NCBI RefSeq assembly: GCF_002218195.1 | Contig: NZ_CP022336.1 | Location: 2,475,001-2,539,000, forward strand | DNA length: 64,000 nt | Reading direction: 5' to 3' | From: Sphingorhabdus sp. SMR4y | Lineage (GTDB): Bacteria; Pseudomonadota; Alphaproteobacteria; Sphingomonadales; Sphingomonadaceae | Position numbers and translations under genes: made by a program | Shown: positions 19,549 to 28,595 of the stretch, in pieces | Layout of the letters: the number at the start of each line of letters is the position of its first letter | Numbering within the stretch: position 1 is the first letter of the stretch | Notes under the pieces: model-generated | Database searches by the model: none | Told to the model about the DNA's origin: nothing | The model's input: the letters and a program-made list of their open reading frames with translations, nothing else

Positions 19549-20640
19549 TCAGTGCGCACCGGATTGCTCCGTCTTGCGTTCGGCTATTCCCGCCAGCAGT
19601 TTGGTCAGCTGAACATAATGTTGCCCAGCATCACGTACCACATCTGCTACGGTCAGAGTCTGCCCGAAGGATATGGTTCTCTTCAACGCGCCGGGTAACA
19701 GGAAACAACGGATGAACTGAAATAATTCGGTGCTGTTCCAGAACAGCCGCTCGCGCCCGATCCGCTTGTACAGAAGCCGTGTCTTTTCCTGCCCAGCATA
19801 AGCGATTGTAGTGCCACCATAGCTCATCATCATCACGCCAAAATGTAGGCGCGTACTGACCAGCAGGTCGAGAGTGGCGGCTTCCTCGCAAGCTTTCTCG
19901 ATATCGGTCAGAGTCTTGCGAGAACAGTTTTTCGGCATCCGGTCCGGTGCAAAGGCATTAAACTCGCCGTTCGGTCCAGGATGAATATCAATGAATATAA
20001 AATCAAGATCCGGACGTAGCCGGACAATCATGCCCAATATCTTTCGTAACAACCTGTACCGTCGGGACTGGGTCATATAGAGATTGAAACCAATCCGACG
20101 TCGACCCGAGGTTTTCTTTTTCGCGACAGGCACCTGATCTGCGGTGGTCCACACCATATCGTTGAAAAATGCTCCGTCGATCCCCGCCTGCTCGAGCAAC
20201 TGGATATCTTCGCTGTTTCTCAATGTAACATGGGTTAAGCCGCGCACGAGATTCTGTCTCTCTGCAGGGGTGATCTGATCGAGCGACTTTCCTGCACCTC
20301 CGAGCGAGATGCCAATCTGCGGAATATTCTTGGCTTTGGCCGCCTCTGTCACTGCACCCATGTCGCGGGTAAAATCCGCCTGTGCCGGGCTCAAATTGTT
20401 TCTAGGGATCAGTAATCCGCCGCCTCCGAATATGATGACGTCAGATTGCGCAACGAGTTCGGTGACGCTGGAGCAAAGTTCCACGTCCCAACCTGACATG
20501 AATTCTGGTGATTTGGTGAAAACTATGGGTTCATAGCCGAGGCTTTTGACATGCCGTGACAACAGAAAAGCCATCAGGTTGTCGCCCAGATTCCCGTAGC
20601 TATAATAGCCGAACAAACCGACTTTCAGATTCTTATCCAT
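19549..20640 (-). CDS. polysaccharide pyruvyl transferase family protein
   Basis: 363 aa, with the family start VGLFGYYSYGNLGDNLMAFL and central DVIIFGGGGLLIPRN. The C-terminal nucleotide-binding half contains DLLVSTRLHFGVMMMSYGG and TTIAYAGQEKTRLLYKRIG, the pattern of CsaB/WcaK/PssM proteins. These transfer pyruvate from phosphoenolpyruvate to a hexose as a ketal and give the polymer negative charge. There is no signal peptide. It follows the epimerase gene by 132 bp, in which a small ORF may lie. Confidence 0.82.
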   Translation of the reverse strand: MDKNLKVGLFGYYSYGNLGDNLMAFLLSRHVKSLGYEPIVFTKSPEFMSGWDVELCSSVTELVAQSDVIIFGGGGLLIPRNNLSPAQADFTRDMGAVTEAAKAKNIPQIGISLGGAGKSLDQITPAERQNLVRGLTHVTLRNSEDIQLLEQAGIDGAFFNDMVWTTADQVPVAKKKTSGRRRIGFNLYMTQSRRYRLLRKILGMIVRLRPDLDFIFIDIHPGPNGEFNAFAPDRMPKNCSRKTLTDIEKACEEAATLDLLVSTRLHFGVMMMSYGGTTIAYAGQEKTRLLYKRIGRERLFWNSTELFQFIRCFLLPGALKRTISFGQTLTVADVVRDAGQHYVQLTKLLAGIAERKTEQSGAH

Positions 20641-20770
20641 GGAGATCCATCCTCATCAGCAATTCGCAGTGTTGTGGCACCATCATGATTGCTGACGGCA
20701 GACCTACCCATGAATCAACCGGTCCGGCTGAGCTGCCGTTGCGCTCAAGAGTGATGGATCCAAGGCGCAT
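20633..20770 (-). CDS. possible 45-aa small protein between epimerase and pyruvyl transferase
   Basis: An ATG at 20770, two bases after the epimerase stop, opens 45 codons and ends in TAA at 20635-20633, just inside the pyruvyl transferase gene. A GGAG lies about 8 bases before the ATG, within the end of the epimerase gene. The product has no membrane span or recognisable domain; it has a Met-rich middle (SAIMMVPQHC). Tight spacing and the ribosome site favour translation, but an ORF this short may be chance. Confidence 0.3.
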   Translation of the reverse strand: MRLGSITLERNGSSAGPVDSWVGLPSAIMMVPQHCELLMRMDLHG

Positions 20771-20772
20771 GC

Positions 20773-21777
20773 TCAGACTCCGTAAAAGTCGCGGTACCAG
20801 TTGACGAATTCGGCCACGCCCTCCCGAAAACCGGTATCTGGCCGGTAACCTGTCAACCGCTGCAGCACGCCGGCGTCCGCCCAGGTGGCCGGCACATCGC
20901 CGGTCTGCATCGGCATGTAATTGCGCACCGCCTTCTTGCCCACTTCATCCTCGATCGCTTCCACGAAATCGAGCAGCCGGATCTTGTCGGAATTGCCGAT
21001 ATTGACCACCCGGAACGGAGCGGCGGGGGACAGGCTGTCATTCTCGACTGCGGTTTCCGGTCCGCCCGGGACCGCGTCGATCAACAGGCGGATCCCGCGC
21101 ACCAGGTCGGTGACATAGGTAAAGTCGCGCCACATCTCGCCATCATTGTAGATGTCGATCGGCGTGCCTTCCAATATGCCCTTGGTGAATTTGAACAGGG
21201 CCATGTCGGGACGGCCCCAGGGGCCATAGACGGTGAAGAAGCGGAACATCGTCGTCGGCATATCGTAGATATGGGCGTAGGAATGGCCCATTGCCTCGTT
21301 CGCCTTCTTGGTCGCGGCATAGATGGTCAGCGGCGTGTCGGCTTTCTGCGTTTCGGCGAAGGGCATTTCGGTATTGGCACCATAAGCCGAACTGGTCGAG
21401 GCCATCAGCAGATGCTGCACCTGCACCGCGCGGGCGGCTTCCATGACGTTGAACGTGCCGACGATATTGGCGTCGATATAGGCGCGGGGATTTTCCAGAC
21501 TGTAGCGGACTCCTGCCTGCGCCGCGAGATGGACGATGATATCGGGTGCGGCGGCGGTGACGGCAGCCTGCACGGCATCATTGTCTTCCAGCATGGCCTG
21601 GGTGAAGGTGAATTTCGGATGCTGGTTGAGCAGCTCGATCCGCCGTTCCTTAAGGCGCACATCATAATAGTCGGTCATGCCGTCATAGCCGGCGACCGTC
21701 CAGCCCTCCTGCAGCAGCAGTTCGGCCAGATGAAAGCCGATGAACCCGGCGGTTCCCGTGATGAAGGCAGTTTTCAT
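20773..21777 (-). CDS. UDP-glucuronate 4-epimerase (NAD-dependent SDR)
   Basis: 334 aa extended SDR. N-terminal FITGTAGFIGFHLAELLL binds NAD; ASTSSAYGANTEMPF and TIYAATKKANEAMGHSY give the Ser and YxxxK catalytic residues. HLAAQAGVRYSLENP and FRFFTVYGPWGRPDMALFKF are characteristic of UDP-glucuronate (rather than UDP-glucose) 4-epimerases of the CapI/GAE group. It overlaps ugd by 4 bp (21774-21777), so UDP-Glc to UDP-GlcA to UDP-GalA is encoded as a pair. Confidence 0.88.
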   Translation of the reverse strand: MKTAFITGTAGFIGFHLAELLLQEGWTVAGYDGMTDYYDVRLKERRIELLNQHPKFTFTQAMLEDNDAVQAAVTAAAPDIIVHLAAQAGVRYSLENPRAYIDANIVGTFNVMEAARAVQVQHLLMASTSSAYGANTEMPFAETQKADTPLTIYAATKKANEAMGHSYAHIYDMPTTMFRFFTVYGPWGRPDMALFKFTKGILEGTPIDIYNDGEMWRDFTYVTDLVRGIRLLIDAVPGGPETAVENDSLSPAAPFRVVNIGNSDKIRLLDFVEAIEDEVGKKAVRNYMPMQTGDVPATWADAGVLQRLTGYRPDTGFREGVAEFVNWYRDFYGV

Positions 21778-23078
21778 CGCCCAACTCCAACATATTCGGT
21801 GAAGCCGGCTGCCAGGACCGAATCGCGATCATAGACGTTGCGCAAGTCGGCCATGACCGGGGAATTCATACCCCCGGCGAGGCGCGCAAGGTCCAGCGCG
21901 CGAAATTCGTTCCACTCGGTCAGGATGACCACGATGTCCGCATCGCTGGCTGTCTCATAGGCGTCGTCCACCCAGGTGACGCCGGGCAACAGCGCCTCGC
22001 CCTCGCGCAGTCCCTGGGGGTCGCATACCCGCACATTGGCGCCGCCGCCCACGAGGGCCGGAACGATGGTCAGCGATGGCGCATCGCGCATGTCGTCGGT
22101 TTCCGGCTTGAACGTGACGCCCATGACGGCCACCGTCTTGCCATTGACCGAACCGCCGCACAGGTCGAGTAGCTTGTCGATCATCCGCCGCTTGATCGCC
22201 TCGTTCACCTCGATCACCGTCTCGGTGATGCGCTGGGGAACGCCATGTTCCTGACCGATGCGGGCCAGCGCGCTGGTGTCCTTGGGAAAGCAGGAGCCGC
22301 CATAGCCCGGCCCGGCGTGCAGGAATTTGTTGCCGATCCGGCCATCCAGCCCGATGCCCTTGGAAACCGACTTGACGTCGGCTCCGACACGCTCGCACAG
22401 GGCCGCGATTTCGTTGATGAAGCTGATCTTGGTGGCGAGAAAGGCATTGGCCGCATATTTGATCATTTCTGCCGATTCCAGATCGGTATAGACGATTGGG
22501 AATTCGCGCAGGAACAGCGGACGGTAGATGTCCCCCATGACCGTCTTTGCGCGGTCGCTTTCGACGCCCACGACGACGCGGTCGGGTTTCATGAAATCGT
22601 CGATTGCCGCGCCTTCGCGAAGGAATTCGGGATTGGAAGCCACGTCAAACTCTGCTTCCGGATTGGTTTCACGGATGACCGCCTCGACCTTGCGGTTGGT
22701 GCCGACGGGTACTGTCGATTTGGTTACCACCACGGCATATCCGGTCAGCGCCCGGGCAATATCCTCTGCCGCGGCCATGACATAGGTCAGGTCGGCATGA
22801 CCATCCCCGCGCCGGGTCGGTGTGCCGACCGCAATGAAGACCGCATCAGCGCCGTCGACCGCTGCGGCCAGATCGGTGGTAAAACTCAGCCGGCCGGCGG
22901 CGACATTGCGTTCCATGACAGCATCCAGCCCGGGTTCGTAAATCGGAACTTCGCCGCGTTCCAGCAGGGCGATTTTTTCGGGCATCTTGTCGACGCAGAC
23001 CACATCATGGCCGAAGTCGGAAAAGCACACGCCCGAGACAAGTCCCACATAACCCGTGCCGATCATTGCAATTTTCAT
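21774..23078 (-). CDS. ugd: UDP-glucose 6-dehydrogenase
   Basis: 434 aa. It oxidises UDP-glucose to UDP-glucuronate with two NAD. Seen: N-terminal Rossmann MIGTGYVGLVSGVCFSDFG, FIAVGTPTRRGDG, SNPEFLREGAAIDDF, and the catalytic cysteine in GPGYGGSCFPKDTSAL. The central helix GLDGRIGNKFLHA and C-terminal domain GVTFKPETDDMRDAPSL are also present. It is first in the run of polysaccharide genes after the MarR-like regulator. The 184 bases upstream (23079-23262) must contain its promoter, but I cannot place -10/-35 with confidence. Confidence 0.95.
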   Translation of the reverse strand: MKIAMIGTGYVGLVSGVCFSDFGHDVVCVDKMPEKIALLERGEVPIYEPGLDAVMERNVAAGRLSFTTDLAAAVDGADAVFIAVGTPTRRGDGHADLTYVMAAAEDIARALTGYAVVVTKSTVPVGTNRKVEAVIRETNPEAEFDVASNPEFLREGAAIDDFMKPDRVVVGVESDRAKTVMGDIYRPLFLREFPIVYTDLESAEMIKYAANAFLATKISFINEIAALCERVGADVKSVSKGIGLDGRIGNKFLHAGPGYGGSCFPKDTSALARIGQEHGVPQRITETVIEVNEAIKRRMIDKLLDLCGGSVNGKTVAVMGVTFKPETDDMRDAPSLTIVPALVGGGANVRVCDPQGLREGEALLPGVTWVDDAYETASDADIVVILTEWNEFRALDLARLAGGMNSPVMADLRNVYDRDSVLAAGFTEYVGVGR

Positions 23079-23262: not shown

Positions 23263-23640
23263 TCATTTGCTTTTCACACCATCGCGGAGTCCGGGCAGCT
23301 GGGCCTCGGGCAGTTCGGCGGCCAGACTCTCGATTTCGGCCTTGAGCGCCTCGTGCTCTTCCATTTTGCGCAGCAGGAACCGGCGCGTCATCGTCGCCTT
23401 TTCGGCGATACCTTTGAGCGTCAGCTTGTAGGCATAGCGGCGCTTGTCTTCTGCAGCGGTGAAATTTCCCAGTTTTACCAGGCCTTTCTCGATCAGCGCG
23501 TTCAGCACATAATGCATGGCCCCGACGCTGACACCAACGGCCTTCGCCATCTCCCGCTGCGACATTTCAGGATTCTCGTCGAGCAGGCGAAGCACGCGAA
23601 ACCGCGTATCCTCCTGAAGCTTGCTGCGTTTGCTCGTCAT
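23263..23640 (-). CDS. MarR-family EPS-associated transcriptional regulator
   Basis: 125 aa winged-helix protein. The start LQEDTRFRVLRLLDENPEMSQREMA leads into the recognition helix VGAMHYVLNALIEKGLVKLG, then a wing with KRRYAYKLTLKGIAEKA and a C-terminal coiled coil (FLLRKMEEHEALKAEIESL). This matches the small MarR-like regulators found beside exopolysaccharide clusters. It lies upstream of ugd on the same strand and probably controls this cluster; its operator was not identified. The gap to ugd contains an inverted repeat CCGGC-N6-GCCGG near 23128-23143 as a possible site. Confidence 0.8.
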   Translation of the reverse strand: MTSKRSKLQEDTRFRVLRLLDENPEMSQREMAKAVGVSVGAMHYVLNALIEKGLVKLGNFTAAEDKRRYAYKLTLKGIAEKATMTRRFLLRKMEEHEALKAEIESLAAELPEAQLPGLRDGVKSK

Positions 23641-24181
23641 AGGTTCAGACTGGTTTTTCTCGGGCTAACCCAACGGGCGCCTCGCGTGGCTAAAAGTCGG
23701 CGGATAGAACAGACTCTATATCGTTCATTATTGAGCGGTAGCATGTTGCGGCGCTGGCGAACAAGTGCAAAAGTAAAAATCTCACTGGGTCTTGCCATGG
23801 CGTTCTGGCGGAAGCGGGGGCGCGTTCCTGGAGGAGTTGCGGCGCCCCATATCCGGAAAACTGTCAGAAAGTCAACGATCTAAGGAGTCAGATTTCGGCG
23901 TAACTCTGTACAACCCTCGCCTTGTCCCGGGCGGGCGCGTTTGCTTTCATCTGCGCTTGAAAAATATCGGGTATTCCGGACAGACATCGCGGTCGGGATA
24001 ATGCTTGCAATTGTATAACCTACAACACAACCAATAATGTTGTTCAGCATATTGCTTTCCATGCCCTGCAAATCTGTATTTCTATGAAATAGTGGCGATG
24101 GTGTGTAACAATAGGCTGGACTTTTAGTCCGTGACAGCGTTCACGAATCCCGATAACCTCTCGACATGAGCTATCGGGCAA
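23641..24181. other. 541-bp intergenic region between EPS regulator and TIR gene
   Basis: No gene can be called firmly. A plus-strand run of 46 codons (about 23742-23882, containing SLGLAMAFWRKRGRVPGG) and a minus-strand run of up to 63 codons (23880-24071, with a weak hydrophobic stretch IIGCVVGYTIASIIP) are both open but lack clear ribosome sites and recognisable similarity. The right half (24000-24180) is AT-rich and is the expected place for the TIR operon promoter. This region separates divergently read units. Confidence 0.5.
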
Positions 24182-25777
24182 ATGTCGTCTGAACATTCGA
24201 TCGCGGGGCAAATTTTGGGAGATGCAGGGAAATCTGATCCGCATGCGGTGCGTTTTCGCGCCTTTGTCAGCTACAGCCATGCCGATGCTGCGATCGCCCA
24301 AAAGCTCCACCGTAAAATTGAAACATATCGGCTGCCCCGTCATTTGAGAGATCGCCAGACGGCAGATCCGGACAATGGCCGCCTTGGCCGAATCTTCCGG
24401 GATCGCGAAGACCTGCCGGCAGCCGAGGATCTCTCGGAATCGGTGAAGCAGGCGCTGGCGGGCTCCGAAGCGCTGATCATCATCTGCTCTCCCGATGCCA
24501 GGGGGTCGCAATGGGTCGCCCGCGAAATTGAATTGTTCCGGACGCTGCATCCGGATCGCCCGGTGCTGGCGGCGCTGGTGCGCGGCGAGCCGGAAGAGGC
24601 TTTCCCGGCGCCCCTACTCGATGGTGCCGAGCCGCTGGCGGCGGACCTGCGCAAGGATGGTGACGGCTGGCGGCTCGGCTTTCTGAAAATCGTCGCGGGC
24701 ATCGCCGGTGTCCCGCTCGATGCGCTGGTCCAGCGCGATGCGAGCCGCCGCATCCGCCGCGTGATGACCGTCACGGGCGGTGCGCTGATCGCGCTGCTAG
24801 CGATGATCGGGATGACAATATTCGCAATCCAGTCGCGCGACGAGGCGCAGCATCAGCAGGCCGAAGCCGAAGGGCTGGTCGAATATATGCTGACCGATTT
24901 GCGCAGCGAGCTGAAAGGTGTTGGCCGGCTTGATGTGATGACCAAGGTCAACGAGCGGGCGATGGACTATTACGAGGATCAGGGTGATCTGTCGGATATG
25001 CCGGCAGAAAGTCTCGAGCGGCGTGCGCGAATCTTGCACGCGATGGGCGAGGATGACGAAAAGCGGAAAAATTTTGGCTGGGCGGCGGTGAAGTTCAATG
25101 AGGCGCACCGGGTAACGGAGGCGTTGTGGGAGCGGGAACCGGGGAATCCGGATCGGATTTTTGCTCATGCCCAAAGTGAAAACTGGCTCGGGCTGGCCGC
25201 ATACTGGAGGAAAGATTACGCTGAATCGAAAAACCGGTATCTGCGCAACAGGAAATTGGTTGATCAACTGATGACACGTAGAAAGATCAAGCCTGAATGG
25301 TTGAGGCATGCCGGTTACTCCTATGGCAACCTGTGCGCGGAGAATCTCGCATCCGGAACGGAACCGGAATTATCTCTGCATTATTGCGCCACCGCATACC
25401 GTCACATCGCCAAATTACTCGAATTGAATCCGCATGACAAACAGGCTTTATCGGACCTCGCCAATCGGCATGCCTGGCTATCGGACGCTTATTTTGCGAA
25501 CGATATGCAGGAGCGGGGTGCGCATCACAGAGAGATGCAGGTTCGTCTCGTCGAAAAGGCCTATCAGGATGATCCGAACAACACGGAGGTTCGCGATCAA
25601 TGGGTCAGAACCCAGATGGTATATGCAGAATTCCTGATTGACCATTCTCGTTTCGAGGAAGCCGACAAATTTGCACAATCTGCCTCTCATATGATTGAGC
25701 AGTTGATCAGGCACGATCCGCAAAACTCACGCTGGAAACTATCGCGCAGCCGAATTCAAAAACTGAAAGCAAATTAG
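24182..25777 (+). CDS. TIR domain-transmembrane-TPR protein
   Basis: 531 aa. Residues about 25-150 form a bacterial TIR domain: RFRAFVSYSHADAAIAQKL (first strand), a long insert with GRIFRDREDLPAAEDLSESV, EALIIICSPDARGSQWVAREI and PVLAALVRGEPEEAFP. W111 and E115 in WVAREI sit where NAD-hydrolysing TIRs have Trp-x3-Glu. One transmembrane helix follows (about 195-217, GGALIALLAMIGMTIFAI), then about 300 residues of TPR-like helical repeats. TIR would face the cytoplasm. It is the first gene of a three-gene unit; the next gene's Shine-Dalgarno overlaps its stop. From about 25140 the coding sequence becomes more AT-rich than the 5' half. NADase activity is inferred only. Confidence 0.82.
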   Translation: MSSEHSIAGQILGDAGKSDPHAVRFRAFVSYSHADAAIAQKLHRKIETYRLPRHLRDRQTADPDNGRLGRIFRDREDLPAAEDLSESVKQALAGSEALIIICSPDARGSQWVAREIELFRTLHPDRPVLAALVRGEPEEAFPAPLLDGAEPLAADLRKDGDGWRLGFLKIVAGIAGVPLDALVQRDASRRIRRVMTVTGGALIALLAMIGMTIFAIQSRDEAQHQQAEAEGLVEYMLTDLRSELKGVGRLDVMTKVNERAMDYYEDQGDLSDMPAESLERRARILHAMGEDDEKRKNFGWAAVKFNEAHRVTEALWEREPGNPDRIFAHAQSENWLGLAAYWRKDYAESKNRYLRNRKLVDQLMTRRKIKPEWLRHAGYSYGNLCAENLASGTEPELSLHYCATAYRHIAKLLELNPHDKQALSDLANRHAWLSDAYFANDMQERGAHHREMQVRLVEKAYQDDPNNTEVRDQWVRTQMVYAEFLIDHSRFEEADKFAQSASHMIEQLIRHDPQNSRWKLSRSRIQKLKAN

Positions 25778-25787
25778 GAGCAAAGTC

Positions 25788-26420
25788 ATGGGGTCTGTTC
25801 AAAATAATAACGCGATGCTTGACCAACAGCAATTCGAGGTAGCCCATTTCATTTTTTTACAAGTTGCAAAACTGGGCAATGCAGAAGACGCGGTGATCGG
25901 TTACAAGAAAATTGCTGAATCGAACAGGCGCAGGGACGCGCAGCAACTGAATGATCTTGTTCAGGAAATCATGACAAAGCCGGCAAACAGTTGGCGAATT
26001 CCCCGGAAAAACCCTGTATCTAAGCCAGGTCGTAAACTGCGTCCTTTATCCATCGAATCTACGAAGAAAAAGACGTTTTTTCTATTCCACTGGGATGTCC
26101 AAAATGACGCGTTTTCGACTTCCGCACCTCCCTTCGAGTCCACCCATGCCGGCATTTACTCTGACTGTCGTCTCTACCGGCTTGCTGGAGGAGGTGTTGA
26201 AATTATCACGCCAAGTGCTGGCGCTGGCGCATATCCGGCATGCAACTGGGCAAGTTTCTTGTACGATGGGGAGCAAGCTTCGAACCAAGGGGTCGCTGGT
26301 CACTTTGTTCACCCTTTCCTGTTCAACACTCAAAGGGGTGAGGAAAATAACCCGGGAGCGGAAGGAATTGTGACAGGGTCGGGAGACACTGGACATCCTG
26401 GCGGTGCCGGAAGTGGATAA
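25788..26420 (+). CDS. uncharacterised 210-aa protein between TIR and SLOG-like genes
   Basis: The ATG at 25788 has AGGAG overlapping the TIR stop codon, so the two are read together. Residues 1-70 look helical and polar (FIFLQVAKLGNAEDAVIGYKK). The middle is aromatic (TFFLFHWDVQNDAF, GIYSDCRLYRLAGGG, NWASFLYDG) and the last 30 residues are Gly/Asn-rich without charge clusters. I recognise no domain, signal peptide or membrane span. Composition is more AT-rich than the flanking genes. A frameshifted C-terminus cannot be ruled out, but the frame stays open to a stop only 16 bases before the chosen start of the next gene. Confidence 0.6.
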   Translation: MGSVQNNNAMLDQQQFEVAHFIFLQVAKLGNAEDAVIGYKKIAESNRRRDAQQLNDLVQEIMTKPANSWRIPRKNPVSKPGRKLRPLSIESTKKKTFFLFHWDVQNDAFSTSAPPFESTHAGIYSDCRLYRLAGGGVEIITPSAGAGAYPACNWASFLYDGEQASNQGVAGHFVHPFLFNTQRGEENNPGAEGIVTGSGDTGHPGGAGSG

Positions 26421-26436
26421 GGCCAAAAGTGAAAGA

Positions 26437-27918
26437 ATGACCACCCTCCACCAAATCCTCGCCATCGCCCGTGCCGGTAACCCGGCGCGGGCATGGGCCT
26501 TGTTTCAGTCCGCTGGCTGGGATGCGCATCCGGATGATCGAAAGGCGCTCACCCTGAAGGGCCGCTTGCTCAAGGATCAGGCGAAGGCTGCGAGCGGTGC
26601 AGATCGTGCGCGGCTTTATGGCGAAGCGGCGGAGGCATATGCGGGGGCGGCTGCGCTGGAGCGCGACAGCTATCCGCTGATCAATGCCGCAGCGCTTGCA
26701 CTGCTGGCAGGCCGGCCGGATCGGGCGCATTCGCTGGCGCGGGAAACGCTGGCGTTGCTAGACAGCGATCCGGAGCAGGGTGAAAATGCCTATTGGCGGG
26801 CCGCGACGCGGGCGGAGGCTCTGCTGCTGCTGGACGATGACACTGGTGCGCGTGCGGCGCTGGCCGAGGGAATATCGAAACTTCCCCGGGCCTGGGAGGA
26901 TCATGCCGCGACCCTTGGCCAGTTTGCACAGATCCTCGCCGAACAGGGCAAGGACGCTGCGTGGCTCGACCGGCATCGTCCACCGCCCAGCCTCTACTTC
27001 AGCGGCATTATCGGCCTGGACGAGACGAACCCGGCCATTGCACAGAATATTGACGCGATCATTGCGCGGGAAAAGCCGGGTTTCGGCTTTGGCGCGCTCG
27101 CAGCGGGGGCGGATATCCTGATCGCCGAGGCGCTGCATAGGGCAGGCACGGAACTGCATATCATATTGCCTTATCCGGTGGACCGCTTCCGGCAAGTGTC
27201 GGTCGCTCCTTATGGCGACCATTGGCTTTCCCGCTTTGATACCCTGGTCGCGGCGGCGGCCCGGCTCGATGCGCTGACGGAATCGCCGGAAGAGGACGAG
27301 CGCGGGATTGCGGTTGCGGTCGAACTGGCGGACCTGGTCGCCATGGGGCAATGCATCCGCAATGCCGCGGTGCTGACAAGCCGACCGAAGGCGCTCACCA
27401 TCACCGGCCGGGGCGATGAACCAAGGCGCCAGCATCTGGTATGGACCGAAACCGGCCACGAGCAATTTTCCCTATCCGTTGCCCGCAAGGCGGACCATGA
27501 TCCGATCACTGCGCCCTCGGACCGGGAGACCAGAGAGCTGGCCGCTATTCTCTGGGTGGACGGGCTCGACCAGGACTCACAGCTCCCTGAAGCCGTCGGC
27601 GCGTTTCAGACTGCTGGCGATGCCTGTTACAGGATTGCTGCCAATATCGCGGAAACGTTGTCGCTCAGCCGCTCTCTGTTGCAGCATCACGCCGATGCCA
27701 GAATCAGCCTGCTGATCGATATCATGGATCCGCAAAGGCCTGCGTCCTCTTTGCTGGAACAGGCCGGTGACATGGCGCGCGCGTCGGGCGGCGGCGCGAT
27801 ATTGACCGACTATAAGTCGGCAATGGTGCTGACGCTCGAACCGGGCGGCCACGCGATCGAGGAGATCGGTGAATTGCAGAGCGTGCGCGGACCGCTGTCA
27901 TTATGGTCCGTCGCCTGA
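26437..27918 (+). CDS. TPR-SLOG-like-degenerate class III cyclase domain protein
   Basis: 493 aa from the ATG at 26437. An in-frame GTG at 26404 would overlap the previous gene by 17 bp and has no better ribosome site. Residues 1-180 are TPR-like helices. Residues about 186-320 read as a Rossmann/SLOG-type nucleotide-sensing domain: LYFSGIIGLDE, then FGFGALAAGADILIAEALHRAG and HIILPYPVDRFRQVSV. Residues 368-493 resemble a class III nucleotide cyclase homology domain. ILWVDGLD and GDACYRI keep the two metal-Asp positions (D375, D395), MARASGGGAILTDY matches the late helix-strand, and IGELQSVRGPLSLWSV the end. The transition-state Asn appears lost. The SLOG and cyclase assignments are by pattern. 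Confidence 0.72.
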   Translation: MTTLHQILAIARAGNPARAWALFQSAGWDAHPDDRKALTLKGRLLKDQAKAASGADRARLYGEAAEAYAGAAALERDSYPLINAAALALLAGRPDRAHSLARETLALLDSDPEQGENAYWRAATRAEALLLLDDDTGARAALAEGISKLPRAWEDHAATLGQFAQILAEQGKDAAWLDRHRPPPSLYFSGIIGLDETNPAIAQNIDAIIAREKPGFGFGALAAGADILIAEALHRAGTELHIILPYPVDRFRQVSVAPYGDHWLSRFDTLVAAAARLDALTESPEEDERGIAVAVELADLVAMGQCIRNAAVLTSRPKALTITGRGDEPRRQHLVWTETGHEQFSLSVARKADHDPITAPSDRETRELAAILWVDGLDQDSQLPEAVGAFQTAGDACYRIAANIAETLSLSRSLLQHHADARISLLIDIMDPQRPASSLLEQAGDMARASGGGAILTDYKSAMVLTLEPGGHAIEEIGELQSVRGPLSLWSVA

Positions 27919-27929
27919 GCGCTTGCCGT

Positions 27930-28583
27930 TCAGATCACCAGTTCCTCGAGCAGACCGCGCGACAGGATTTCCAGCCTTTTGTCATCGCGCCGGATGATTC
28001 CGCGCCGTTCCAGCGCATTGATTGCCCGCGAACCGGTCTCGCGCGTTGTCTGGGCGGATAAGGCGAGCGCCGCGATCACGGGCGGTGGCGCTATTTCGCC
28101 TTTCTCCCCCGCTTCGTGCAGCAACTCGGCATAGACCCGGCCATTGGCGGTCAGGGTGATGCGGGCCGCCATCCGGTCGAGTACCGCATTATATTGGCGG
28201 CCCAGAATCTTGGCCAGGCCGCTGCCGATCCGGGCTTCTTCCTGCAACAGGACGGTCATTTTTGCGGTGGGGATTTCAAGCACCGAGAGGCCTGTCTGGG
28301 CCACGACATCGGAAATCACGATCCGCTCGTGCGGAAAGGCACCGAACAATTCTCCGGGACCATGGGCGGCGAGCAATTTGGTCTGGCCGTCCACACCGAT
28401 GATCTGCAACTGCGCCCGGCCTTCGAGCACGATCCAAAGCTTGGCTCCGGGATCGCCCTGATGAGCGAGAATAGCCTTGTGGCGATAGTGCACCAGCCGG
28501 GTGGCCGAATCCACTCTCGCGGCTTCTTCCGGTGAGCAGGAGAAAAACGCGGCGAGGGCGGCGATACGGTCGCTGCTGGTCAT
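27930..28583 (-). CDS. Crp/Fnr-family transcriptional regulator
   Basis: 217 aa from the ATG at 28583, which lies behind a GGAGGAGG run; the in-frame ATG at 28595 abuts the previous stop with no ribosome site. Residues about 20-120 form the cyclic-nucleotide-binding-like beta roll (HYRHKAILAHQGDPGAKLW, GPGELFGAFP). The C-terminal helix-turn-helix is LSAQTTRETGSRAINALERRG. The roll lacks an obvious cAMP phosphate-binding Arg-Ser and there is no FNR cysteine cluster, so the ligand is unknown. It is last in a minus-strand operon with the TIGR03084-type and AtuA-type genes and may control it. It converges with the TIR/SLOG unit. Confidence 0.85.
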   Translation of the reverse strand: MTSSDRIAALAAFFSCSPEEAARVDSATRLVHYRHKAILAHQGDPGAKLWIVLEGRAQLQIIGVDGQTKLLAAHGPGELFGAFPHERIVISDVVAQTGLSVLEIPTAKMTVLLQEEARIGSGLAKILGRQYNAVLDRMAARITLTANGRVYAELLHEAGEKGEIAPPPVIAALALSAQTTRETGSRAINALERRGIIRRDDKRLEILSRGLLEELVI

Positions 28584-28595
28584 TACCTCCTCCAT

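Follow-up and report, generated by a model that had tools for sequence, protein, structure and literature searches.

Layout of the locus

The stretch of DNA analysed here, which we call the window, comprises 64,000 nucleotides of Sphingorhabdus sp. SMR4y (NZ_CP022336.1, forward-strand positions 2,475,001 to 2,539,000). Our subject is a group of four adjoining genes within it, encoding a TIR protein with a probable membrane anchor, a small hypervariable protein, a TPR-S protein with a degenerate cyclase end, and a Crp/Fnr-type regulator. An initial annotation of this DNA had described the first three as a plus-strand signalling or defence unit. Those three open reading frames (ORFs) are indeed real and tightly packed, with gaps of 10 bp (gene 1/gene 2) and 16 bp (gene 2/gene 3), but the unit does not end with gene 3 at 27918 and runs on into the Crp/Fnr gene, a partner which that annotation overlooked together with a probable swapped cassette spanning genes 1 and 2. 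Gene 3 measures 493 aa from its ATG; an upstream GTG at 26404 would give 504 aa. The features of the locus are as follows.

24130..24145: Crp-type palindrome CGTGA-N6-TCACG, 36 bp 5' of the TIR start codon
24182..25777, plus strand: gene 1, TIR-transmembrane-TPR protein, 531 aa (ORF, Pfam, alignment)
24263..24664, plus strand: TIR domain, gene 1 residues 28-161, with Glu115 within SQWVAREI (Pfam, alignment)
24760..24775: second palindrome match, within the TIR gene, which may be due to chance (pattern scan)
24773..24829, plus strand: hydrophobic segment, probably a single transmembrane segment, gene 1 residues 198-216
25180..26400, plus strand: putative swapped cassette, consisting of the gene-1 C-terminal TPR part and gene 2
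25788..26420, plus strand: gene 2, 210 aa, hypervariable, apparently a divergent member of the pNTSase1 superfamily, with the tail GDTGHPGG
26437..27918, plus strand: gene 3, 493 aa, TPR-S plus Rossmann/SLOG-like region plus predicted pseudo-cyclase
26452..26697, plus strand: TPR-S domain (PF20308), gene 3 residues 6-87 (Pfam)
26950..27471, plus strand: conserved middle region of gene 3 (GALAAGADILIAEAL..ELHIILP), SLOG-like by eye only
27514..27915, plus strand: degenerate class III cyclase domain of gene 3 (alignment, profile)
27930..28595, minus strand: gene 4, Crp/Fnr-type regulator, 221 aa, with the RETGSR helix kept and the cyclic-nucleotide pocket Glu and Arg-Ser/Thr lost

A recurrent four-gene module

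Relatives of gene 3 are present in 21 of 40 related genomes, the window's own included. For the gene neighbourhood, named genomes were scanned by gene-3 similarity and the best 80 of 275 loci were used, from Sphingomonas, Sphingobium, Novosphingobium, Qipengyuania, Caulobacter, Brevundimonas and others; selected in this way, the loci yield counts that describe this branch and not all TPR-S proteins. Of the 77 named loci with at least 900 bp of downstream sequence, 72 have a Crp gene as the next gene downstream of gene 3 (the exceptions being L136, L155, L163, L188 and L193); in 70 of those 72 it is convergent with gene 3, the median distance being 4 bp. Upstream of gene 3, a TIR gene is found in 67 of 72 named loci with at least 2.6 kb of sequence on that side. 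Both neighbours occur together in 60 of 69 loci, and the middle ORF was also picked in 55 of these 69. By its own terms the initial annotation would have been refuted by homologues whose genes never adjoin, and these counts show the opposite. Within the order, more distant TPR-S/cyclase proteins (L034-L041, L060-L067) are accompanied by different partners or by none. From each of fifteen pairs of loci with identical gene 3, one member was kept (152 loci becoming 137) for the pocket, tree, operator, identity, covariation, transmembrane and close-pair counts; both members stayed in for the named-locus neighbourhood counts, the gene-2 ORF count and the Fnr-type motif test.

Within the genus, 10 of 24 genomes, counting the window's own, have a close Crp (56% identity or more across almost its full length): nine with a window-type gene 3, plus G010, in which a Crp with an in-frame stop stands beside a 53-aa remnant of gene 3. 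In G003, which is without gene 3, Crp is reduced to its first 68 codons, with stops, at the same flank; the downstream flank of the module is common to several genomes of the genus. Judged from its sequence and surroundings, the Crp/Fnr gene is a dedicated fourth member of the module, and the four genes almost certainly form one unit.

Side observations on the more distant relatives may be recorded here. In L060-L062 and L067 a TIR-like gene comes after the TPR-S/cyclase gene, in the same orientation. Eight same-genus genomes (L034-L041) have instead a gene-3 relative with an intact cyclase, preceded in L034-L037 by a gene for a TIR protein that has hydrophobic segments at its C-terminus, and with no recognised TIR gene adjoining in L038-L041. 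Each of the related genomes searched gave a single gene-3 match, so that none displayed both kinds.

The TIR protein and its TPR-S partner

The initial annotation read gene 1 as a TIR-transmembrane-TPR protein, and our searches bear this out. It matches the Pfam families TIR_2 (43.2 bits, cut-off 28) and ThsB_TIR (38 bits, cut-off 21.2), followed by a hydrophobic segment at residues 198-216 and then by TPRs. The Glu of the SxWVxxE motif, which we take to be the catalytic-type TIR Glu and which is E115 in the window, is present in all 101 aligned rows that cover the position, of 104 rows. A match of gene 1 to the PADLOC model SAVED_TIR (30.7 bits) is read as TIR similarity. The window's genome (3.48 Mb, a single contig) has one TIR_2 match, and a PDB sequence search with gene 1 alone gave no match.

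Gene 3 had been proposed as a TPR-containing sensor beside the TIR protein, and this description holds in so far as it carries TPR-S (PF20308, 32.4 bits, cut-off 27.6), the family that Pfam names 'Tetratricopeptide Repeats-Sensor', within a conserved module. TPR-S was matched in 57 of 57 gene-3 relatives at E<=0.1 in the Pfam scan. The middle region contains a strongly conserved GALAAGADIL..ELH..LP motif. Compared with DprA, STALD and YAcAr profiles, it gave at best E 0.029 at a probability of 1.7%, a comparison without power, because the three known SLOG sets likewise missed one another; the STALD (ThsA) alignment consisted of only 2 sequences. A PDB sequence search with gene 3 alone found no match, and one with the gene-3 profile found eight weak sequences, six of them cyclases (best E 0.022) and two thermonucleases (E 0.053). 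Elsewhere in the window's genome there is a YAcAr-type SLOG protein (G000:C1:388953-389168).

Gene 2 as a putative divergent pNTSase1 relative

The third component had been called unknown, and the window's gene 2 by itself indeed has no family match in Pfam, NCBIfam or PADLOC, but profile comparisons connect it to a known family. It groups (class c3) with its counterparts in L024 and L029, and more weakly with that in L030. Class c3 is linked to class c4 with a probability of 96.7% (E 4.7e-10) and to class c1, the pNTSase1 class, at E 1.1e-4 and a probability of 56%. All 32 class-1 members submitted match pNTSase1 at E<=1, and one gene-2 relative just reaches the Pfam cut-off for that family (25.2 against 25). 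pNTSase1 itself (PF20301, 'Predicted novel nucleotide synthetase' in Pfam) occurs in 16 of 296 genomes of the order, and 15 of the 16 matches lie 40-138 bp from a TPR-S match, the exception being G261; a class-wide search found it in 1 of 337 genomes. A PDB search with the class-1 profile returned nothing below E 0.19. By these profile links, gene 2 is a putative, very divergent relative of pNTSase1.

A middle ORF of 145-306 aa occurs at this place in 109 loci, a count that includes duplicates and a few doubtful picks. By a rough pattern, the C-termini are of an IDPD..N..GG/PPP kind in 77 of 97 proteins, of an HGGIHPP-like kind in 12 and of neither kind in 8; the window's protein ends in GDTGHPGG. 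No transmembrane segment is predicted in 95 of 97.

A probable swapped cassette across genes 1 and 2

DNA identity between the window and three close loci (L023, L114 and L025) is 72-95% over 24223-25182, falls to 34-48% over 25183-26382, and is 61-92% beyond. Against L023 alone, it is 82-92% from 24223 to 25062, 73% to 25182, 37-47% to 26382 and then 71-90%, a profile that L114, L025 and L027 share; against L024 the drop begins near 24943. The boundaries of the cassette are good to about 120 bp. A separate fall, to 56-64%, is seen in the pseudo-cyclase part against L024, L025 and L027. At the protein level, window and L023 are 92% identical in the TIR domain, 90% in the transmembrane region, 31% in the last TPR part, 25% in gene 2, 78-87% in gene 3 and 90% in Crp. 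Across the six closest species, identity to the window is 78-92% (TIR), 69-83% (gene 3) and 85-90% (Crp) in what we call the frame, and 19-31% (gene-1 tail) and 20-26% (gene 2) in the cassette. GC content is about 50% in the cassette against 64% on either side, and gene 3 exceeds the gene-2 interval in GC in 89 of 89 loci.

The tail of gene 1 and gene 2 vary together. Over 89 loci their similarities correlate at r 0.83 (partial r 0.755 with the frame removed), and none of 999 permutations rose above 0.145; the TIR-transmembrane part tracks gene 3 instead (r 0.86). In 68 close pairs, tail and gene 2 are both replaced in 22, and where gene 2 is kept (46 pairs) the tail is kept too in all except two, L032/L033 and L074/L086. 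In 14 of 89 loci the nearest relative of the tail is also that of gene 2 and differs from that of gene 3, for example the window with L030 and L114 with L110, some of these matches being weak (0.09 of the self score for the window's gene 2 against L030). The 89 loci were kept out of 104 with a gene-1 match: seven were left out for an unusable middle ORF (L031, L095, L142, L145, L147, L169, L183), three for a gene 1 of at most 400 aa (L029, L068, L186), and five by eye, before the statistics, for a middle ORF that seemed mis-picked (L083, L091, L103, L104, L155).

The pattern fits either the exchange of a unit or alleles kept over a long time. Fast divergence is less likely where the bodies cannot be aligned, and physical linkage by itself might produce the coupling. 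On this comparative evidence we regard swapping of the cassette as very probable.

Joint decay of the cyclase and the Crp pocket

The initial annotation took the C-terminal domain of gene 3 for an altered cyclase-like domain that keeps both metal aspartates and has lost the transition-state Asn. Both metal Asp are present in the window's protein, but of 96 degenerate-type gene-3 proteins only 23 keep the first, 17 the second and 21 the transition-state Arg, counts from a gappy region whose columns depend on the alignment; in L023 and L024, two of the window's closest relatives, Glu stands at the first metal position. The window has Asp at the Arg position and Glu at the Asn position. Loss of the Asn is true of the window but not peculiar to it, because Thr or Ser stands there in 23 of 29 intact-cyclase proteins. 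Since the lineage has not kept the metal Asp and the Arg, and the window has replaced the residues at the Arg and Asn positions, the domain is best read as a putative pseudo-cyclase, which looks dead and not just altered.

An intact cyclase end (FAD..GF, WGDG and ARIEP-type motifs) is present in 12 loci that bear a Crp gene. PF00211 scores 36-43 bits (cut-off 21.9) on three intact-cyclase proteins, two from these 12 and one paralogue. The cyclic-nucleotide pocket Glu and Arg-Ser/Thr are kept in cyclic-nucleotide-binding members of the Crp/Fnr family and not in the family as a whole. Scored by aligned columns, these residues are kept in 12 of 12 Crps that stand beside an intact cyclase, and the pocket is intact in 0 of 96 beside a degenerate one (the Crp of L167 is intact by regular expression and not by columns); the window's Crp has GAVI where pocket-bearing Crps have GER[ST]. 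We consider an ancestral link from cyclase to Crp probable on the strength of these residues.

The Crp/Fnr gene and its operator-like sites

Gene 4 of the window combines a cyclic-nucleotide-binding-type domain (PF00027, 50.7 bits) with a Crp helix-turn-helix (PF13545, 34.7 bits). The recognition helix RETx[SG]R, presumably equivalent to the DNA-contacting helix of E. coli CRP, is kept in 108 of 108 Crps. The pattern GTGA-N6-TCAC has two matches in the whole 64 kb, both within the module (24130-24145, and 24760 in the TIR gene). The aligned site at 24130-24145 is kept in L023 and L025 and degraded in L024 and L114. Across loci, the pattern occurs 5' of the TIR gene in 14 of 89 (intact-cyclase branch 5/10, other 9/79) and 5' of crp in 27 of 95 (0/12 and 27/83), against a background of 193 in 6291 windows of 300 bp (3.1%). 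The binomial p values are 6e-7 for the TIR gene and 7e-19 for crp, with related loci not down-weighted. The Fnr-type motif TTGAY-N4-RTCAA showed no enrichment across loci.

Genomic surroundings

On the minus strand a surface-polysaccharide cluster adjoins the module at 19549-23078, with genes for polysaccharide pyruvyl transferase, NAD-dependent epimerase and UDP-glucose dehydrogenase. Between the cluster and the module lies a small MarR-like winged-helix gene (23263-23640), whose PADLOC matches (Csa3, CARF) seem to reflect no more than a generic helix-turn-helix.

Proposed function and alternative explanations

On balance we favour, with somewhat more confidence than doubt, a signalling module of four genes, made up of a frame that stays constant and a cassette that varies, in which a variable sensor would be wired to a TIR enzyme and to the module's own transcription switch. 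The frame would consist of the membrane-anchored TIR domain at the N-terminus of gene 1, gene 3 and the dedicated Crp-type regulator, and the cassette of the C-terminal TPR part of gene 1 and gene 2. The variable pair may recognise a fast-changing trigger, or may form a matched lock on the TIR enzyme. Its release would switch on the TIR domain, which, to judge from the kept Glu, could cleave NAD+ and/or make an NAD-derived messenger, and gene 3 could sense that output through its TPR-S and Rossmann-like domains. In the ancestral form, gene 3 would have made a cyclic nucleotide read by Crp, as the joint occurrence of cyclase and pocket residues suggests, and the palindromes point to a Crp that acts on the module's own promoters. 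In the branch of the window this cyclic-nucleotide wire appears to have been lost at both ends and all four genes retained; because they are still kept together, gene 3 probably controls Crp in some other way, by direct contact or through another ligand.

That one cassette differs completely between close species and the frame stays constant suggests the changing specificity of a recognition system. We see defence, whether against phage or against some other fast-varying partner, as the most likely use, a plausible one to which we give an even chance; the initial annotation had offered immunity as conjecture, and we leave it at that status. A more specific version, held only tentatively, would make this an allelic recognition locus with a constant TIR frame, a cassette (TPR tail and matched pNTSase-like partner) swapped by recombination, a dedicated Crp switch, and a cyclic-nucleotide wire replaced in the window's branch.

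Several observations pull against this interpretation. Gene-3 relatives were found in no phage record and no viral contig and in one record among 72,556 plasmids, PADLOC found only generic helix-turn-helix or cyclic-nucleotide-domain matches and no defence gene among 10 neighbouring proteins, and the locus is chromosomal, unlike mobile defence genes. The replacement pairs come from only ten species in two lineages (Parasphingorhabdus and Sphingorhabdus type), and nearest-relative agreement between gene 2 and gene 3 (29/89) is only somewhat lower than that between tail and gene 2 (37/89). Covariation of tail and gene 2 can arise from linkage of neighbouring DNA without protein contact, and contact would be hard if the TPR part is periplasmic, with a single transmembrane segment, and gene 2 cytosolic. 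In a quick-method tree of 137 rows, built on the TPR-S/Rossmann part, the loss of cyclase and Crp pocket falls on one transition; the 12 and the 96 loci are therefore not 108 independent cases, and what is shown is a change of both features on a single branch, not a repeated one. A further 17 loci carry an intact cyclase with no Crp adjoining; 16 of them are placed on other branches, and the remaining one, L069, which has a TIR gene, belongs to this branch. Perfect palindromes are found at a minority of loci, and none precedes crp in the 12 intact-branch loci. In G001 a TIR gene is present and gene 3 and Crp were not found, the contig ending inside the module (the TIR gene reaches to within 65 bp of its end).

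An origin from a mobile element was also considered, and is not supported by the phage, viral-contig and plasmid searches. The single match in the plasmid collection, L239, belongs to Novosphingobium sp. RL4 (NZ_CP141945.1) and lies on a 1.8-Mb replicon typed as non-mobilizable.

The alternative that survives best, a possibility that we place clearly below even, is an envelope or stress signalling circuit without immune role, self-regulated through Crp, whose variable part would read surface polysaccharide or neighbouring cells. Such a circuit would suit a chromosomal locus with a downstream flank shared by several genomes of the genus, a dedicated transcription factor with operator-like sites, an adjoining polysaccharide cluster in the window, and absence from phages with one plasmid match. 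It sits less well with the swapped cassette and with the patchy presence and decayed remnants in the genus, which are more usual for conflict genes.

We think it rather unlikely that the locus is a toxin-inhibitor lock, in which gene 2 would encode an inhibitor matched in specificity to the TPR tail of gene 1, a trigger would remove gene 2, and Crp and gene 3 would set expression. The joint replacement of tail and gene 2 is what such a lock would produce, as is a gene 2 placed directly downstream whose protein joins a variable body to a short, conserved C-terminus; however, linkage alone explains the coupling, a membrane may separate the tail from gene 2, and Pfam names the gene-2 family a predicted synthetase.

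Improbable, in our judgement, is two-step immunity after the manner of Thoeris, in which the TIR protein would make a cyclic ADP-ribose variant and gene 3, sensing it through a SLOG-like domain, would be the effector. The catalytic-type Glu and ThsB_TIR match of the TIR protein, the sensor-like protein adjoining it and the strong conservation of the gene-3 middle motif all agree with this scheme. The initial annotation's suggestion of a Thoeris-type system nevertheless fails on the effector: Pfam finds no SIR2 or other ThsA-type effector family on the window's gene 3 (E<=10), and the 22 families matched at E<=0.1 in 57 gene-3 proteins include neither SIR2 nor a SLOG family, the SLOG profile comparison being powerless. 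The C-terminal domain of gene 3 is, moreover, read as a decayed cyclase, and a conserved transcription regulator suits a regulatory output better than direct killing.

A reading of the set as mere conserved synteny, with gene 2 an unrelated filler ORF, might be suggested by the lack of a Pfam match for gene 2 in the window and by the low identity of gene 2 to its counterparts; it is very improbable given an ORF of 145-306 aa recurring at the same place in 109 loci, the profile links of class c3 to c4 and c1, and the pNTSase1 matches of all 32 class-1 members submitted.

Comparison with known systems

A literature search brought no description of the four-gene module that we recognised, which does not show its absence from print. 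LypABC of Caulobacter is an immune-like operon under a transcriptional repressor, CdxB, that has many other targets, and like the module it is an immune-like locus in a related group that does not adjoin known immunity genes; it differs in its CARD-NLR-like, peptidase and ATPase domains, and the passages of the source available to us mention no TIR or TPR-S (PMC13236601). LypABC was set aside as a relative, those passages showing no shared part.

Thoeris (ThsA/ThsB) resembles the module in having a TIR enzyme with a catalytic-type Glu beside a putative sensor, but the module has no SIR2 and no detectable SLOG domain, and has a TIR protein anchored by a probable transmembrane segment, a predicted pseudo-cyclase and a transcription regulator. 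Pycsar consists of the PycC cyclase and an effector gated by a cyclic nucleotide. The ancestral branch of the module likewise pairs a class III cyclase with a cyclic-nucleotide-binding protein, but its receptor is a Crp of DNA-binding type and not a membrane effector, and the window's branch appears to have lost the nucleotide step. PADLOC's PycC match on the window's Crp (22.8 bits, residues 18-117) covers only the cyclic-nucleotide-binding part. Membership of Pycsar was rejected on the lost cyclase residues of the window and the DNA-binding type of the partner protein.

The closest known kind is the group of predicted TPR-S/pNTSase/TIR systems that Burroughs and Aravind reportedly described in J Bacteriol in 2020, with TPR-S sensing NAD-derived signals, and the module is a variant of it. 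Both bring together genes for TIR and TPR-S proteins with a third gene, which in the module is putatively of the pNTSase1 superfamily. The module appears to differ by its Crp/Fnr gene with operator-like sites, by the joint decay of cyclase and pocket and by the cassette. To our knowledge the predicted TIR/TPR-S systems are an untested kind without a known output. From the DNA of this module one can read a candidate output gene (Crp), a probable operator and an ancestral wire from cyclase to Crp, and the pathway is thereby open to testing gene by gene. The sharp boundaries of the cassette offer a route, through cognate and non-cognate cassettes, to what is recognised. If the joint decay of cyclase and receptor pocket in a circuit that was kept is as we propose, this variant of the predicted TPR-S/pNTSase/TIR group would clearly exemplify the evolutionary replacement of a second-messenger step.

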